Source: a virus. From it: a DNA stretch of 27,399 nucleotides. The position numbers and the translations under genes are program-made. Shown in pieces: positions 6,713 through 16,510 of this stretch. Where the stretch lies: positions 1-27,399 of the IMG/VR virus record IMGVR_UViG_3300045911_000012; one strand, given 5' to 3'. The notes beneath the pieces are model-generated. The model saw nothing but the letters and a program-made list of their open reading frames with translations, had not been told where the DNA came from and searched no databases. Position 1 is the first letter of the stretch; the number at the start of each line of letters is the position of its first letter.

Positions 6713-6766
6713 GTTGTGCTCCTATGCTGTAGTGGTGGCTTGTATATGTGACTTGACCCGTTCTGT

Positions 6767-6795
6767 GAAATACCACACATTCACACTACTGTCAA
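6767..6795 (-). promoter_or_regulatory. Leftward sigma70-like promoter for the late-gene unit
   Basis: On the minus strand TTGACA (6795-6790) and TATTTC (6772-6767) are separated by 17 bases. The -35 is perfect and preceded by C, and the sequence CTTGACAGTA followed by GTGTGG before the -10 is shared with the rightward promoter at 9285-9313. The -10 is weak (TAT plus mismatches), as might suit a late promoter that needs activation. Transcription would start near 6760, about 48 bases before the ATG at 6712. Confidence 0.6.
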
Positions 6796-6812
6796 GTGCT
6801 GCGCGCTGCGCG

Positions 6813-6857
6813 TTGTGTGGTGTTGTTGTATTGTGTGGTGTTGTGTTGTTGTATTGT
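6813..6857. repeat. G/T-rich direct repeats
   Basis: TTGTGTGGTGTTG occurs at 6813-6825 and again at 6831-6843, an 18-base period. TGTTGTTGTATTGT occurs at 6821-6834 and 6844-6857. The tract is almost free of C on the plus strand and leads straight into the AT-only repeat. Iteron-like repeats next to an AT-rich block are typical of replication origins, but no initiator-binding motif is recognised. Confidence 0.6.
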
Positions 6858-6883
6858 ATATATTATATATTATATATTATATA
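6857..6883. repeat. AT-only heptamer tandem repeat, candidate DNA-unwinding element
   Basis: Twenty-seven consecutive A/T bases are built from the heptamer TATATAT repeated almost four times. It stands out in a genome of otherwise high GC and lies between the divergent late and early units beside G/T-rich repeats. Such easily melted blocks occur in origins; strong promoter melting regions are the alternative. Confidence 0.65.
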
Positions 6884-7544
6884 CTGTAGTGGTGTGTTGT
6901 GGTGTTGTATGTGGGGGTTGTTGTGTTGTGTTATTAGTTATATGACACCCCCACGACCCCCTGTCAAGGGGTATAGTTGCTAAGGGCGGCCCGAAGGGGC
7001 GCCCCCCATCACATTCCCTCCACCCCCGCAAATAACTCCACACTACAACAACACAACAATGCGCAATACACAACAACAACGCAACAACACACAACACAAT
7101 TACACACTACTACAACACACCACACTACAACACGCAACTCAACACACGTCACACTACCACAACACACAACAACACGGCAAGGCGTGGGGTGTTGCAGTGA
7201 GCACGTGTATGCGAGTGGTGGTGTGAGGGATGAAAGAGTGGATGGTTGAAAAGAGGGGAGTGGTTGATATGCGGCGGCACGCACAACCCCAACACAACAC
7301 CCCTATTTGGGATTCACGGACTAGGGGGGGCTATGTTTCTAGCGTAGGATCATATTCCGTTGCGTGGTTGGTTGTGTGGTGAGTGTGGGGGTCGGGGGCG
7401 CCTGGCGTATTGTGCAGTGCAGCATTGATTTTGTGAATGGTGAAGGTGCGCCGTTGGCCTCTGTAGCCCCTTGTGAACCGTTGACTTCTGCAACCCTTGC
7501 TCGGCAAGCCACCATGCACAATGTGTGCATCGTTGATGGGGCGC
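6884..7544. other. Divergent low-complexity intergenic region, no convincing gene
   Basis: This 660-base stretch separates the leftward and rightward units. From about 6884 to 6935 the plus strand stays G/T-rich. A GC-rich patch follows (6950-7010) with CCCCT..AGGGG arms and a GGGGCGCCCC palindrome. From about 7025 to 7175 it switches to an A/C-rich tract of CAACA-type units that mirrors the earlier G/T tract. GGGGTGTTG at 7186-7194 has an exact inverted partner CAACACCCC at 7295-7303, and CCCCTA near 7300 pairs with TAGGGG near 7322. Short open frames exist on both strands from 7331 to 7609 but have low-complexity products and no good ribosome sites. Confidence 0.6.
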
Positions 7545-7573: not shown

Positions 7574-7620
7574 GTGCATAGCCTAGCAATGGTGTTGGGC
7601 GAGCGATAGGAGGTTCCGCT

Positions 7621-7863: not shown

Positions 7864-7894
7864 CCGCCGCCCCATGTGGGCGGCGGTTTTTTTT
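7864..7894 (+). terminator. Strong intrinsic terminator
   Basis: CCGCCGCCC (7864-7872) pairs perfectly with GGGCGGCGG (7878-7886) across a five-base loop, followed by eight T residues (7887-7894). It ends the 7621-7839 transcript just before the next promoter. Confidence 0.95.
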
Positions 7895-7904
7895 GTCTGC
7901 GCGC

Positions 7905-7933
7905 TTGACACTAGGTGCGCACCATGCTATGTT
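7905..7933 (+). promoter_or_regulatory. Rightward sigma70-like promoter with structured leader
   Basis: A perfect TTGACA (7905-7910) and TATGTT (7928-7933) are 17 bases apart, eleven bases beyond the preceding terminator. The predicted start near 7938-7940 coincides with the first helix of the leader RNA at 7938-8049. Confidence 0.85.
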
Positions 7934-7937
7934 CACC

Positions 7938-8049
7938 ATACGTTGATTGACATTGTAAATCGGGTAGAACGTATCGGGCAGCGCGCGCTACCCGGTGCGA
8001 CACTCGCGCATGAGCGCACAACGTGTCGCATGTCAGCCGCGCGCTGCCC
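7938..8049 (+). ncRNA. Highly structured mRNA leader with interlocking helices, candidate cis-regulatory RNA
   Basis: Four exact inverted repeats lie between the promoter and the ribosome site. ATACGTT (7938-7944) pairs with AACGTAT (7968-7974). CGGGTAG (7961-7967) pairs with CTACCCG (7988-7994). GGGCAGCGCGCG (7976-7987) pairs with CGCGCGCTGCCC (8038-8049). TGCGACAC (7996-8003) pairs with GTGTCGCA (8023-8030), with an inner GCGC-ATGA-GCGC. The CGGGTAG arm lies in the loop of the first helix while its partner lies inside the long third helix, so the pairing would form a pseudoknot or compete with the others. No known riboswitch class is recognised. It ends 13 bases before the AAAGGAA ribosome site. 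Confidence 0.65.
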
Positions 8050-8076
8050 ACACACTCAACAGAAAGGAACAAGTCT

Positions 8077-8976
8077 ATGGCTACTATCTCCAATGATCCG
8101 GTCTCGCTCGCTGTTCGTGCCTATCAGGCGAGCGAAGGCCATGCGCTGAAGGCGGAAGCCGCGTTCGCGGCCTTCGTCTATCACTGCCAAGCGATTGTCA
8201 GTGATCCGGAACGCGGCGCGTTCGCACCGTCGGCCGAATGGTCCCCATGGGAACACTCTGACCGCCGGAAAGATGTCGCCAACGGGCTTCGCAAGGTTCT
8301 GTTTGGCAGTGATGAACTGCCGAGCAAGGCCAAGGTTGGCGCAACGCTGCACAACAAGGCCCGCGCCGAGCGTGCCAAGCAGCAGCGCGCCTGCCAGCAG
8401 GCCATCAACGCGCTTGCTGGCATCTACCGTGGCATGTCCACCACTGGCGCCGTTCCCATGTGGAGCGGCACGGACTGGGCATTGCCTCTCGACTACTTCC
8501 TTCCTGCCGATGTTGTCGCCAGGGTGGACAAGGTGTTTATCCTCAGCGACAAGATCGCCAAGCCTACCGGGCCGGATGGGCGGTATATGTTGCCCATGAC
8601 TTCCACCACCAGCGAACACACTGCGCGATATGTGGAGGAAGACGCGGAAGGGAACGAAGTTGAAGCTTTCGCCAAGGTCAAGGTTACGCGTGACAGCATC
8701 GCCAAGATTGGCGCGCCGCCCCGTGAGGAACGCGAGACGGAGGAAGGCGAGAGGAACGAGGCGGACGCGCCTACCAGCGTTCCGCTTCCTCAGGCGGCGT
8801 CGGCGCTGCATTCGGCGCTTGCTGCCGCAGACTACATCGTGTCTGGGGACGCTGCGGATGCATTCCTTGACCTGATCCGCGCATGGCGTGATGCCAGCCC
8901 TGCCAATCGCAAGGCGCTGCTGGATATCGCCACGGAACAGCCCACGACCGAAGCCGCCTTGCCGAGCATGGCGTGA
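8077..8976 (+). CDS. Early protein of unknown function, single-gene unit
   Basis: The 299-residue protein starts MATISNDPVSLAVRAYQAS; ATG 8077 follows AAAGGAA by eight bases and is preferred over an ATG 18 codons earlier that falls inside the structured leader. Residues 1-120 are mostly helical and basic (for example HNKARAERAKQQRACQQAIN). The middle (about 125-185) is mixed, with ALPLDYFLPADVVARVDKVF. Around 205-245 is an acidic low-complexity linker (EERETEEGERNEADAP). The C-terminus is helical. No catalytic motif is visible. It has its own promoter, an unusually structured leader and a strong terminator at 9021-9058, so it is probably made in large amounts and regulated separately. Codon use is GC-rich compared with the downstream small genes. 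Confidence 0.85.
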   Translation: MATISNDPVSLAVRAYQASEGHALKAEAAFAAFVYHCQAIVSDPERGAFAPSAEWSPWEHSDRRKDVANGLRKVLFGSDELPSKAKVGATLHNKARAERAKQQRACQQAINALAGIYRGMSTTGAVPMWSGTDWALPLDYFLPADVVARVDKVFILSDKIAKPTGPDGRYMLPMTSTTSEHTARYVEEDAEGNEVEAFAKVKVTRDSIAKIGAPPREERETEEGERNEADAPTSVPLPQAASALHSALAAADYIVSGDAADAFLDLIRAWRDASPANRKALLDIATEQPTTEAALPSMA

Positions 8977-9020
8977 CGCTCGACCAGCCTAGGCCAGCAA
9001 TGGCCTAGGCCACCCCTACC

Positions 9021-9058
9021 AGCCCCGCACGGTTGATCCCGTGCGGGGCTTTTTTTTT
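9021..9058 (+). terminator. Strong intrinsic terminator
   Basis: AGCCCCGCACGG (9021-9032) pairs with CCGTGCGGGGCT (9039-9050) across a six-base loop, followed by a run of T to 9058. It closes the 8077-8976 unit. Confidence 0.95.
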
Positions 9059-9284
9059 GTCCTACGCCTGGGCATTTCTGCCTATCCCGCCAGACTGTAT
9101 GCCTATCCACCTACCACTCCCCAACACAAGTAATGCGTGACGCCAGGCCTTGGATCGCCTAGCATGTCCTGCCATGCAGACAGGCAGGCAGACAGGCAGA
9201 CAGGCAAGCAGGCATGCAAGTTGTGGGTGCCGCGTGGTGTCGTGACGCAAGTAACTGGGCACACTGCGCACAACTGGTGCAGAC
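9059..9284. other. Intergenic spacer with no gene
   Basis: Between the terminator and the next promoter there is no frame with a ribosome site. It contains the tetranucleotide repeat at 9176-9220 and a near-copy (GCACAACTGGTGC, 9268-9280) of the 13-bp palindrome that recurs downstream, placed just before the -35 of the next promoter. Confidence 0.6.
9176..9220. repeat. Tetranucleotide repeat tract (AGGC/AGAC units)
   Basis: About ten imperfect four-base units (CAGG, CAGA) follow each other on the plus strand, flanked on both sides by ATGCA. A related GCAG repeat lies inside the coding region at 10973-10992. Both look like slippage-generated simple repeats. Confidence 0.7.
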
Positions 9285-9313
9285 TTGACAGTAATGCGTT
9301 TGTGTGGTATATA
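9285..9313 (+). promoter_or_regulatory. Rightward sigma70-like promoter
   Basis: TTGACA (9285-9290) and TATATA (9308-9313) have a 17-base spacer ending in GTGTGG. It is the best consensus match in the window and shares CTTGACAGTA with the leftward late promoter. The transcript should start near 9320, at the base of the cloverleaf-like leader. Confidence 0.88.
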
Positions 9314-9322
9314 TACAAACAG

Positions 9323-9413
9323 GTGGTGAGTGTGAGATTTGATCTACAGGCTGTGCTGTTGGCACAACTTGTGCGCACTCACCACACACAACCTGCCGCA
9401 ATGGTGCGGCAGG
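9323..9413 (+). ncRNA. Cloverleaf-like leader plus GC hairpin before the 108-residue early gene
   Basis: GTGGTGAGTG (9323-9332) pairs perfectly with CACTCACCAC (9376-9385). Inside lie three short hairpins almost back to back: AGAT/ATCT (9335-9338, 9342-9345), ACAG/CTGT (9346-9349, 9356-9359) and GCACA/TGTGC (9362-9366, 9370-9374). A separate perfect hairpin, CCTGCCGCA/TGCGGCAGG (9392-9400, 9405-9413, loop ATGG), precedes the ribosome site. Together they occupy almost the whole leader. It is too small for a tRNA and lacks tRNA consensus bases. It could stabilise the mRNA, bind a protein or control translation. Confidence 0.55.
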
Positions 9414-9433
9414 TAGCCAGAAAGGAGCACAAC

Positions 9434-9760
9434 ATGCACAATGAGAAGGAGTTGCGGGCCGACATCTCGCAGAATGCGAAGGTTCTGCCGAGCCCGCACG
9501 TGAAGCAGATCGTGATCCGGGAGTATCACGGACGCATCAGCGCGCATATCGTGACCAACGATGGCGAGACGCTCTACCTGTGCGACTTCAGCCCTGACGA
9601 CGTGCAGGCTGTCGTCAATCACGCGCAGCGCAACATTGCTGCGATGGATGCGCTGCGCAATGCGCGCAACAACAAGATTGCGGCGGTGCAGGCTGTCCGT
9701 GTGCTCACTGACTGCGGCATCAAGACCGCCAAGGACATCGTGGATGCCCTGATGCAGTGA
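9434..9760 (+). CDS. Small early protein with an L7/L12-C-terminal-like motif, unknown function
   Basis: The 108-residue product starts at ATG 9434, seven bases after AAAGGAG; longer upstream frames would run through the leader structure. The N-terminal half is beta-rich (VKQIVIREYHGRISAHIVTN, GETLYLCDFSPDDV). A helical stretch follows with many Ala and Asn residues. The C-terminal AVRVLTDCGIKTAKDIVDAL resembles the helix-turn-helix-like piece 'AIKxLRxxTGLGLKEAKDxVD' of ribosomal protein L7/L12 C-domains, which recurs in small phage proteins of unknown role. It has its own promoter and a structured leader, suggesting high early expression. Hairpins at 9767-9835 follow. Confidence 0.8.
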   Translation: MHNEKELRADISQNAKVLPSPHVKQIVIREYHGRISAHIVTNDGETLYLCDFSPDDVQAVVNHAQRNIAAMDALRNARNNKIAAVQAVRVLTDCGIKTAKDIVDALMQ

Positions 9761-9766
9761 CGCTTT

Positions 9767-9795
9767 GGGAGCGGGCACAACTTGTGCTCGCTCCC
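9767..9795 (+). terminator. Hairpin containing the 13-bp palindrome, possible weak terminator
   Basis: GGGAGCGGGCACA pairs with TGTGCTCGCTCCC (one G-T pair) around an ACT loop, only seven bases after the stop codon. The following TCTC is a poor U-tract, so it may attenuate rather than stop transcription. The core GCACAACTTGTGC (9775-9787) is repeated exactly at 9362-9374 and 10704-10716. Confidence 0.5.
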
Positions 9796-9835
9796 TCTCA
9801 AAGAACCGCTGCATGGTGCGGCGGCTCTTTGTGAG
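9795..9835 (+). promoter_or_regulatory. Long leader hairpin at the ribosome site of the next gene
   Basis: A 19-position stem (17 pairs, one of them G-T) joins 9795-9813 to 9817-9835 with the loop TGG. Its 3' arm ends in GAG, which is also the start of the AGGGAG ribosome site for the GTG at 9849. Folding could therefore limit translation initiation, or shield the mRNA 5' side after processing. Confidence 0.55.
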
Positions 9836-9848
9836 GGAGACACAACAA

Positions 9849-10292
9849 GTGCGCAGGAACAGAGACAAACTACTTGCTGTCATGCAGCAGGTAGTCGACA
9901 ACGGTGAACAGTTCGACGTGTGCGACTGTGGGCGGTGCGCAATGGCGCACTACCGTGCCAACAACCCTGAGATCGGCCCACTCGACCCAGTGTTCGACCC
10001 TGACTGGGTTGCACGTCACTTTATGATCACGCTCGCACTAGCGAACAACTTGTTCGCACTGTGCCCAGGCGCTGACTACGGTGATCCTGAGCAGGCAGGC
10101 AATGCAGCCTACCATCTAGAACGCATCAAGGCTGCGTTCGACAAGGCCAACCCCTGCGAGGCCGCGTTGTCGGTTGTCGCAGCACAACTTGGTAGCATCA
10201 TTTCTGCGCTAGAAGCAGAGCAGCACGAATACGTGTGGGAACTGATGCATGAGTTGCGCGGCGTGGTGCGCAGTGTGCAGATGGGAGGCTGA
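9849..10292 (+). CDS. Early protein with a Cys cluster, unknown function (GTG start)
   Basis: The 147-residue product starts at GTG 9849 after AGGGAGACACAACAA; an ATG 28 codons earlier lies within two hairpins and has no ribosome site. Residues about 23-30 read FDVCDCGRCA, a C-x-C-x2-C cluster that could bind a metal. The acidic loop DPVFDPDWVARHF and a helical second half (AAYHLERIKAAFDKANP, LGSIISALEAEQHEYVWELM) follow. No family is recognised. The next gene starts three bases after its stop, so it heads the small group 9849-10686, which ends at a terminator near 10697. Confidence 0.75.
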   Translation: MRRNRDKLLAVMQQVVDNGEQFDVCDCGRCAMAHYRANNPEIGPLDPVFDPDWVARHFMITLALANNLFALCPGADYGDPEQAGNAAYHLERIKAAFDKANPCEAALSVVAAQLGSIISALEAEQHEYVWELMHELRGVVRSVQMGG

Positions 10293-10686: not shown

Positions 10687-10696
10687 TGCATGGGTG

Positions 10697-10727
10697 GGTG
10701 GCTGCACAACTTGTGCAGTCACCTTTT
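10697..10727 (+). terminator. Intrinsic terminator built on the repeated 13-bp palindrome
   Basis: GGTGGCTGCACA (10697-10708) pairs with TGTGCAGTCACC (10712-10723; one G-T pair) around the loop ACT and is followed by TTTT. The core GCACAACTTGTGC (10704-10716) is shared with the elements at 9362 and 9775. A smaller hairpin (ACGGC/GCCGT near 10736-10753) follows before the next gene. Confidence 0.7.
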
Positions 10728-10790
10728 CCTGATGAACGGCTGCATTGGGCCGTGACACCAACACATAACGCATGAAAGGAGACACAAGTA

Positions 10791-11168
10791 ATGCAGAACA
10801 ACGATCCTACGTTTGAACAGTTGAAGGTGCTGTTCGACGCTGTGATGCCGCACCTGCACGCCACGATGCAGGCACGCGATGACCTACAGGACGCATTCAA
10901 TGGAATGCGTGTCGTCTTGCAGCAGTTTGTTGTGTCGCAGGCATGCAGGCAGGCCGGTGAGCAGACAGTTGAGCAGGCAGGCAGGCAGGCAGTGCTGTCC
11001 AATGCTGCAACCACCCTGCTGCGCATGACCAACAAGTTGTTGGATGAGATGGGGTGGAGTTTGGCTGAATACGACGATGCATTTGCTGAGCAGTTGGACA
11101 AGTGGCATCGTAGCGTGAAACTGTCAGGCCTTGAGCACACAGGCCTTGAAGGTGATGGAGAGGAGTGA
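10791..11168 (+). CDS. Small early protein with an internal GCAG repeat, unknown
   Basis: The 125-residue product is helical, beginning MQNNDPTFEQLKVLFDAVMP; AAAGGAG precedes the ATG by ten bases. The middle, QACRQAGEQTVEQAGRQAVL, is encoded partly by five perfect GCAG units (10973-10992). Because the unit is four bases, gain or loss of one copy would shift the frame and truncate the protein, as in phase-variable bacterial genes. The C-terminus ends in an acidic tail (GLEGDGEE). No family is recognised. The next ATG overlaps the stop. Confidence 0.72.
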   Translation: MQNNDPTFEQLKVLFDAVMPHLHATMQARDDLQDAFNGMRVVLQQFVVSQACRQAGEQTVEQAGRQAVLSNAATTLLRMTNKLLDEMGWSLAEYDDAFAEQLDKWHRSVKLSGLEHTGLEGDGEE

Positions 11169-16090: not shown

Positions 16091-16510
16091 GTGAGCGAAC
16101 TTCCTAGCGTGATGGAACTTGACTTCGACCTCAACGATGCGAAGCCGCCGGTGCCGCTGCCGGAAGGCGAGTATCGTGCAACGGTGCGTGCGATTGAGCG
16201 TGCCATCTCCAAGAACAGCGGCAAGGACATGGCCGTTGTTGACTACTTCGTGTCGCCCGACCAGTTCCCGCCGGACTTCACGGACGGCAACCCGGATGGT
16301 GAAGTGTTGCGCACCTACATCAGCATGGACATGTCCGTGCCGCGCAACCGTTACCGGTGGAAGCAGTTGCACCAGATGCATGGGGTGCGCATCATCCCTG
16401 GTCGCCTCGACCTGACCGCCTTCATCGGTCGGGACGTGATCGTGCAGGTCACGCATGAGGACTACCAGGGCGAACCGCGCCCCCGTGTCAACCCGATCCG
16501 CGAGGCGTAA
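16091..16510 (+). CDS. SSB-like single-stranded DNA-binding protein (DUF669-type), GTG start
   Basis: The 139-residue protein has an OB-like strand pattern: EGEYRATVRAIERAISKNSG, MAVVDYFVSPDQF, EVLRTYISMDMSVPRNRYRW, DLTAFIGRDVIVQVTHEDYQ, ending PRVNPIREA. The motif GRDVIVQVTHEDYQGEPRPRV resembles the last strand of DUF669 and similar phage proteins that accompany Sak4 recombinases and act like SSB. GTG 16091 follows AAGGAG by eight bases. It has its own strong promoter, fitting the large amounts an SSB requires, and a GC-rich codon pattern unlike the neighbouring ATPase. A hairpin at 16531-16557 follows. Confidence 0.7.
   Translation: MSELPSVMELDFDLNDAKPPVPLPEGEYRATVRAIERAISKNSGKDMAVVDYFVSPDQFPPDFTDGNPDGEVLRTYISMDMSVPRNRYRWKQLHQMHGVRIIPGRLDLTAFIGRDVIVQVTHEDYQGEPRPRVNPIREA

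Follow-up and report, generated by a model that had tools for sequence, protein, structure and literature searches.

Sequence evidence for a conserved pseudoknotted leader RNA upstream of a single phage gene

Most accounts of phage regulation concern proteins and DNA, and to our knowledge covariation-supported pseudoknots have been recognized in few phage mRNA leaders. The window analyzed here, the whole of a 27.4-kb virus record from IMG/VR (IMGVR_UViG_3300045911_000012, positions 1 to 27,399), carries a cluster of inverted repeats between a predicted promoter and a gene of unassigned family. It thus raises the question of whether the first transcribed nucleotides of this gene form a functional RNA and, if so, what kind of function such an RNA may have.

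The cassette and its conservation

The window encodes terminase, DNA polymerase, primase, helicase and recombination genes. The region of the cassette consists of short rightward units, each with its own promoter, that are presumably expressed early. To the left of the cassette is a non-coding, repeat-rich stretch (about 6750-7400), in which AT repeats alternate with GT/CA repeats and which precedes the first of the short rightward units; it is a possible replication origin.

The promoter, ribosome site, open reading frame and strong terminator that had been claimed in an earlier note on this DNA are all present in the window (Table 1). The second promoter hexamer, TATGTT at 7928-7933, is preceded by TG, the promoter matches the consensus at 10 of 12 positions, and it ends 4 bases 5' of the first inverted repeat. 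The leader extends from the predicted transcription start to 11 nt 5' of the ribosome site. Two further candidates were rejected, namely a promoter inside the leader (a second TTGACA at 7947, with no good -10 by eye) and a leader peptide or upstream start (GTG 8023), since the respective reading frames are not conserved among all relatives.

Table 1. Positions of the predicted elements of the cassette and its leader within the window
Feature	Position	Strand	Remarks
Promoter, sigma-70-like, extended -10	7905..7933	+	TTGACA at 7905, 17-nt spacer, TGCTATGTT
P1 5' strand (ATACGTT/AACGTAT helix)	7938..7944	+	pairs with 7968-7974; exact in the window
P6 5' strand, UGACA	7948..7952	+	pairs with 8031-8035
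Segment A, pseudoknot stem 1 5' strand, AUCGGGUAG	7959..7967	+	9 pairs with 7988-7996
P1 3' strand; alternatively part of pseudoknot loop 1 (7968-7975)	7968..7974	+	
Near-copy of segment A, AUCGGGCAG	7973..7981	+	overlaps B, can pair with C
Segment B, pseudoknot stem 2 5' strand, GGGCAGCGCGCG	7976..7987	+	12 pairs with 8038-8049
Segment C, pseudoknot stem 1 3' strand, CUACCCGGU	7988..7996	+	pairs with A
P4 (7997-8003/8023-8029) and apical P5 (8006-8009/8014-8017)	7997..8029	+	pseudoknot loop 3
P6 3' strand, UGUCA	8031..8035	+	pairs with 7948-7952
Segment D, pseudoknot stem 2 3' strand, CGCGCGCUGCCC	8038..8049	+	pairs with B
Shine-Dalgarno-like ribosome-binding site, AGAAAGGAA	8061..8069	+	in a linker with little structure
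ORF of a 299-residue protein, family unassigned	8077..8976	+	dN/dS 0.05-0.24
Intrinsic terminator, closing the cassette	9021..9058	+	12-bp stem and U-tract

Four true relatives of the 299-residue protein were found in IMG/VR (70-90% identity), and in each of them the gene is directly preceded by the same promoter and leader. Protein searches of viral and genome contigs returned no true homologues beyond these four, and DNA pattern searches recovered the same four phages only. L126 was rejected as a homologue, its hit being a chance match to an unrelated protein. The more distant polymerase relatives L135-L139, some of whose records are fragments, gave no match to the leader model; no similar sequence was present in named phages and plasmids, nor any related protein in the named-phage collection. 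The dN/dS of the gene against the four relatives (first 200 codons; Table 1) indicates that it is a real gene. Its product yielded no Pfam, PHROG or PDB match of weight and no recognizable RNA-binding domain, and a fold search with its structure model gave no significant match but was uninformative owing to the poor quality of the model (mean pLDDT 50). A weak SSB-like match was observed for another gene of the window, at 16091-16510.

The proposal of a bounded cassette comprising promoter, leader, one gene and terminator holds in all five phages, and the position of the leader, from the first transcribed base to just 5' of the ribosome site, is conserved along with it. Both promoter hexamers are identical in the five phages, and the stem and U-tract of the terminator are retained in all of them despite differing stem sequence. 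Furthermore, the relatives' leaders are 80-90% identical to that of the window, whereas identity at 4-fold degenerate sites of the gene is only 37-74%, and the leader is therefore under strong constraint.

Helices of the leader and their covariation

The four perfect inverted repeats (7, 7, 12 and 8 bp) described previously were confirmed at 7938-7944/7968-7974, 7961-7967/7988-7994, 7976-7987/8038-8049 and 7996-8003/8023-8030, respectively. Chance levels were estimated from 3,000 dinucleotide shuffles of the segment and from the 1,950 overlapping 112-nt stretches of the window. The same number of inverted repeats of at least 7 was reached in 19 of the 3,000 shuffles, an equally long repeat in 3, and an interlocking pair as long as the 7-bp and 12-bp repeats in 2. 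Only 2 of the 1,950 stretches attained the interlocking score, both covering the leader site and none lying elsewhere in the window. Comparison of folding energy with dinucleotide-shuffled controls and a search for covariation in homologues, the two checks proposed in the earlier note, both gave positive results. The leader with its linker has a minimum free energy of -55.4 kcal/mol (z -3.4; z -3.7 without the linker) and thus folds better than the controls, while the leaders of the four relatives gave z values from -2.7 to -3.6.

Covariation across the five leaders was detected in the A:C and B:D helices. The CGGGTAG/CTACCCG repeat, previously suggested to imply a pseudoknot or a switch between folds, extends to the 9-bp helix A:C, in which 45 of 45 cells of the five-leader alignment are paired, three pairs are changed on both sides and none is broken; the pseudoknot is thus borne out. 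The first of these double changes is A-U versus C-G and divides the phages two to three, and the other two (U-A to C-G and G-C to A-U) occur in L005. In helix B:D all 60 cells are paired, with one pair changed on both sides and six showing one-sided wobble changes. The P4/P5 hairpin is paired in all five leaders and nearly invariant. P6, a 5-bp closing helix absent from the earlier note, is also paired in all five, with a single U-A to U-G change in L002. P1 is the weakest of the set. It is exact in the window, as had been noted, but it loses its two outer pairs in L002, is bulged in L004 and has no pair changed on both sides. It is therefore weakly supported, and its 3' strand may instead serve as pseudoknot loop 1.

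For the whole structure (A:C, B:D, P4, P5 and P6), 185 of 185 cells are paired without mismatch. This was matched by none of 500 column shuffles, and pairing falls to at most 50% when partners are slid by 1-3 columns. When 2,000 alignments were simulated along the leader tree with the structure unconstrained, the observed result was reached in no run for A:C and in one for B:D; these figures refer to five sequences from one narrow phage group, in which independent changes are few (four doubly changed pairs, two of them seen only in L005).

The strand on which this structure acts can be read from the wobble pairs. The core pairs include 16 G.U cells and no A.C, a pattern that argues for plus-strand RNA and not for the minus strand or duplex DNA. 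Judging from these substitutions, the leader is under selection as plus-strand RNA. The same observation bears on a DNA element, such as a cruciform, a replication origin or an inverted-repeat operator, which the perfect inverted repeats near the odd repeat-rich non-coding stretch at 6750-7400 might suggest. However, the sixteen G.U cells would be mismatches in duplex DNA, the wobble direction fits the plus strand only, and the repeats are located between the predicted transcription start and the ribosome site. A DNA element is thus almost certainly not the explanation, and a DNA cruciform or operator was rejected on the wobble asymmetry. We consider it very likely that the five phages share a conserved leader RNA with a pseudoknot.

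The structure that best fits the alignment is a long H-type pseudoknot with stems of 9 and 12 bp. Its strands follow each other in the order A, loop 1, B, C, P4/P5 and D (Table 1). B and C adjoin, with zero nucleotides between the two stems on the central strand; the third loop holds the P4/P5 hairpin, and P6 closes the A:C/P4 junction. The support for the pseudoknot comes from pair counting on the alignment, and the fold energies were calculated with nested (pseudoknot-free) rules. These rules favor B:D and place C largely unpaired in an internal loop beside it, and A:C and B:D could therefore in principle coexist.

Competing folds, known systems and possible function

An additional feature of the leader is the near-copy of segment A that overlaps B. 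It can form 8 of 9 pairs with C in the window, L002 and L003, and 9 of 9 in L004 and L005. In predicted folds this competing hairpin is favored in several 5' fragments; as the fragments grow, either A:C or the near-copy hairpin appears first and B:D forms near nucleotide 110. Since C can be claimed by either of two near-copies of the 5' strand, a switch between alternative folds, or a strand exchange, is possible according to these models. Leader positions 29, 43, 52 and 108 change jointly, being either A,A,U,U or C,C,G,G. A requirement that A and B each match both partners would predict such a joint change, which may also be a coincidence. The competing hairpin (7973-7981/7988-7996) was also considered as the source of the covariation and rejected, as it has three mismatched cells versus none for A:C. 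One of its pairs is changed on both sides between well-paired states and a second only via mismatches, whereas A:C has three compensated pairs and no mismatch; we thus regard it as secondary. A self-timed RNA switch, in which A and the start of B compete for C during transcription until D resolves the contest into the pseudoknot and so sets the time of gene expression or its dependence on a bound factor, seems unlikely.

It had also been suggested that the leader might be a riboswitch-like element; a ligand-binding riboswitch is not supported, as an expression platform was not found. In predicted folds the unpaired probability from -22 to +3 is about equal with and without the leader, leaving the ribosome site unmasked, and no terminator with a U-tract lies between leader and gene. 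The free ribosome site and the lack of an intervening terminator argue against a classical riboswitch platform. Searches against Rfam 15 gave no match across the whole window, and on 7880-8090 the sub-threshold matches were at chance level (lowest E 0.23), with none at the gathering threshold. The leader is an RNA of no known family. The preQ1, SAM-II and fluoride riboswitches are likewise pseudoknots in mRNA leaders, but the present leader differs from them in having no Rfam match, no sequestered ribosome site and no terminator, and in preceding a phage gene. A small-molecule riboswitch working through exchange among A:C, the competing hairpin and B:D could draw on the two near-identical strands competing for one partner and on the different hairpins through which the predicted folds of growing 5' fragments pass. 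Nevertheless, this exchange is uncoupled from a terminator or from ribosome-site sequestration in the predicted folds, and the leader, without an Rfam match, occurs in one phage group only, so that we rate such a riboswitch as very unlikely. The leader might also be the body of a small RNA that is processed from the mRNA 5' end and acts in trans, a reading compatible with the compact stable fold and with the conserved 5' stretch CGUUGnUUGACA.GUgAAUC, which could pair elsewhere. This reading is very improbable indeed, given that no terminator follows the leader and that the leader is always found with the same gene.

Pseudoknots in mRNA leaders can also be bound by proteins. Ribosomal-protein leaders (S4/alpha operon, S15) are protein-bound pseudoknots for autogenous control, whose folds include or abut the ribosome site; in the present leader, in contrast, the ribosome site lies outside the fold. 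A further likeness is offered by the gene 32 operator of phages T4 and RB69, in which a 5' pseudoknot bound by gp32 is followed by a less structured ribosome site (PMC535899). The leader shares this layout, i.e. an H-type pseudoknot in a phage mRNA located 5' of a less structured ribosome site. However, the T4 pseudoknot spans about 28 nt and is followed by more than 40 nt with UUAAA/UAAA repeats before the start codon (PMC535899), whereas the leader studied here is about 112 nt long, has stems of 9 and 12 bp with a hairpin inserted, and is separated from the ribosome site by a linker of 6-11 nt, ACACACUCAACAGAAAGGAACAAGUCU, which has no UUAAA/UAAA repeats. In addition, the T4 operator is bound by gp32, a single-strand binding protein encoded by the gene that follows it, while the 299-residue protein is without a recognizable RNA-binding domain.

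The second precedent is the put RNA of phage HK022, which measures about 70 nt, has two stem-loops and is located 3' of an early promoter (PMC9378689). Its target is RNA polymerase, where it suppresses termination via the zinc-binding domain of the beta' subunit. Compared by layout, both are structured RNAs immediately 3' of a phage early promoter (PMC9378689); the position of the leader fits, but its length and its pseudoknot differ. The leader could be a processive antitermination RNA that binds RNA polymerase directly and allows read-through of the terminator at 9021-9058. With putL the leader shares its place just 3' of an early sigma-70 promoter and the two large structural domains (PMC9378689), and a strong terminator does lie downstream. 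On the other hand, put RNAs are about 70 nt long with two stem-loops, and the structure paper mentions no pseudoknot (PMC9378689); moreover, a conserved strong promoter at 9285 serves the next gene, and read-through would therefore be unneeded. We thus find antitermination quite unlikely. We claim membership neither in the gene 32 operators nor in the put RNAs, and both serve here as precedents by analogy.

By analogy with T4 gene 32, protein binding would be the simplest reason for such a fold at this place. In the mechanism that we propose, the first approximately 112 nt of an early phage mRNA would act as a conserved cis-acting regulatory RNA. During transcription C would pair first with A or with its near-copy; once D emerges, it would take B into the very stable 12-bp stem, so that C is left to pair with A and the pseudoknot is locked. 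The finished knot, 11 nt 5' of an exposed ribosome site, could be recognized by a protein, in the simplest case the 299-residue gene product itself, which when bound would limit its own translation or the life of the mRNA, as gp32 does on T4 gene 32. A cis-regulatory role of some kind appears rather probable, and we see about an even chance that the leader is a protein-bound or otherwise regulatory cis-acting element. Autogenous repression by the 299-residue product specifically is a tentative suggestion on our part.

The main competing view is that the leader serves as a 5' stability and insulation element, shielding the early mRNA from 5'-end RNases and keeping the ribosome site free, with no sensing involved. 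In its favor, the fold at the predicted first base of the transcript is very stable in all five phages, the ribosome site is unmasked, and at least one further transcript of the same phages starts with strong hairpins. However, a plain hairpin would suffice for this purpose, and the double stem, the compensated pseudoknot pairs and the almost invariant 5' stretch demand more; we therefore consider it somewhat unlikely. Compared with simple protection, a regulatory leader remains our preferred reading. The conservation pattern makes it a good candidate for a new gene-control RNA; it matches no catalogued family, and its simple one-gene cassette could be moved to a reporter plasmid.

A second leader element and neighboring hairpins

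Just 3' of the cassette there is another family of leaders that likewise looks regulatory. Its two-hairpin plan recurs in three leaders or intercistronic regions (9314-9433, 9762-9850 and 10690-10795): the first hairpin carries the cap GCACAACUUGUGC, the second reads CCGCUGCAUGGUGCGGCGG or similar, and the ribosome site and ACACAA(C) come next. When up to 2 mismatches are allowed, the dyad occurs 21 times in the window versus 3.1 expected (both strands, perfect dyads counting twice), and copies of the plan are present in all four relatives (copies in L148, L150, L151 and L152). Complementarity between the ribosome site and the 3' strand of the first hairpin is seen in most copies, for example CUCCCUC with GAGGGAG at 9775; the window copy at 9362 departs from this, having only 3 pairs to the ribosome site. 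Paired and free states of the ribosome site lie about 0 to 6 kcal/mol apart, and in these models the element looks like a ribosome-site sequestering switch reused at several genes. The pseudoknotted leader has as its neighbor a second type of leader, which is repeated and may switch its ribosome site. Taken together, the two types suggest that RNA structure runs part of the early program in this phage group.

The same kind of dyad (GCACAACTGGTGC, ATGCACAATGTGTGCAT) was also observed immediately 5' of promoters, at 9268-9280 and 7516-7528 of the window, and just 5' of the leader promoter in L002 (693-710). Because of this location upstream of promoters, the promoter-adjacent dyads, and thus part of the two-hairpin dyad, may serve a phage regulator as a DNA operator.

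Between the stop codon of the 299-residue gene and the terminator there is a perfect hairpin at 8988-9013, CCTAGGCC-AGCAAT-GGCCTAGG, which is compensated in L003 (GGCCTAGGGC/GCCCTAGGCC) and missing in L002. The heptamer GCAATGG recurs at or near the loop of strong hairpins at 7577-7602, 8990-9010, 9390-9412 and 9930-9955, with a register that varies between hairpins, and its sharing may be due to chance. Finally, the C-terminus (residues 74-105) of a 108-residue protein encoded at 9434-9760 resembles part of the C-terminal domain of ribosomal protein L7/L12, with a match just below the Pfam cut-off.
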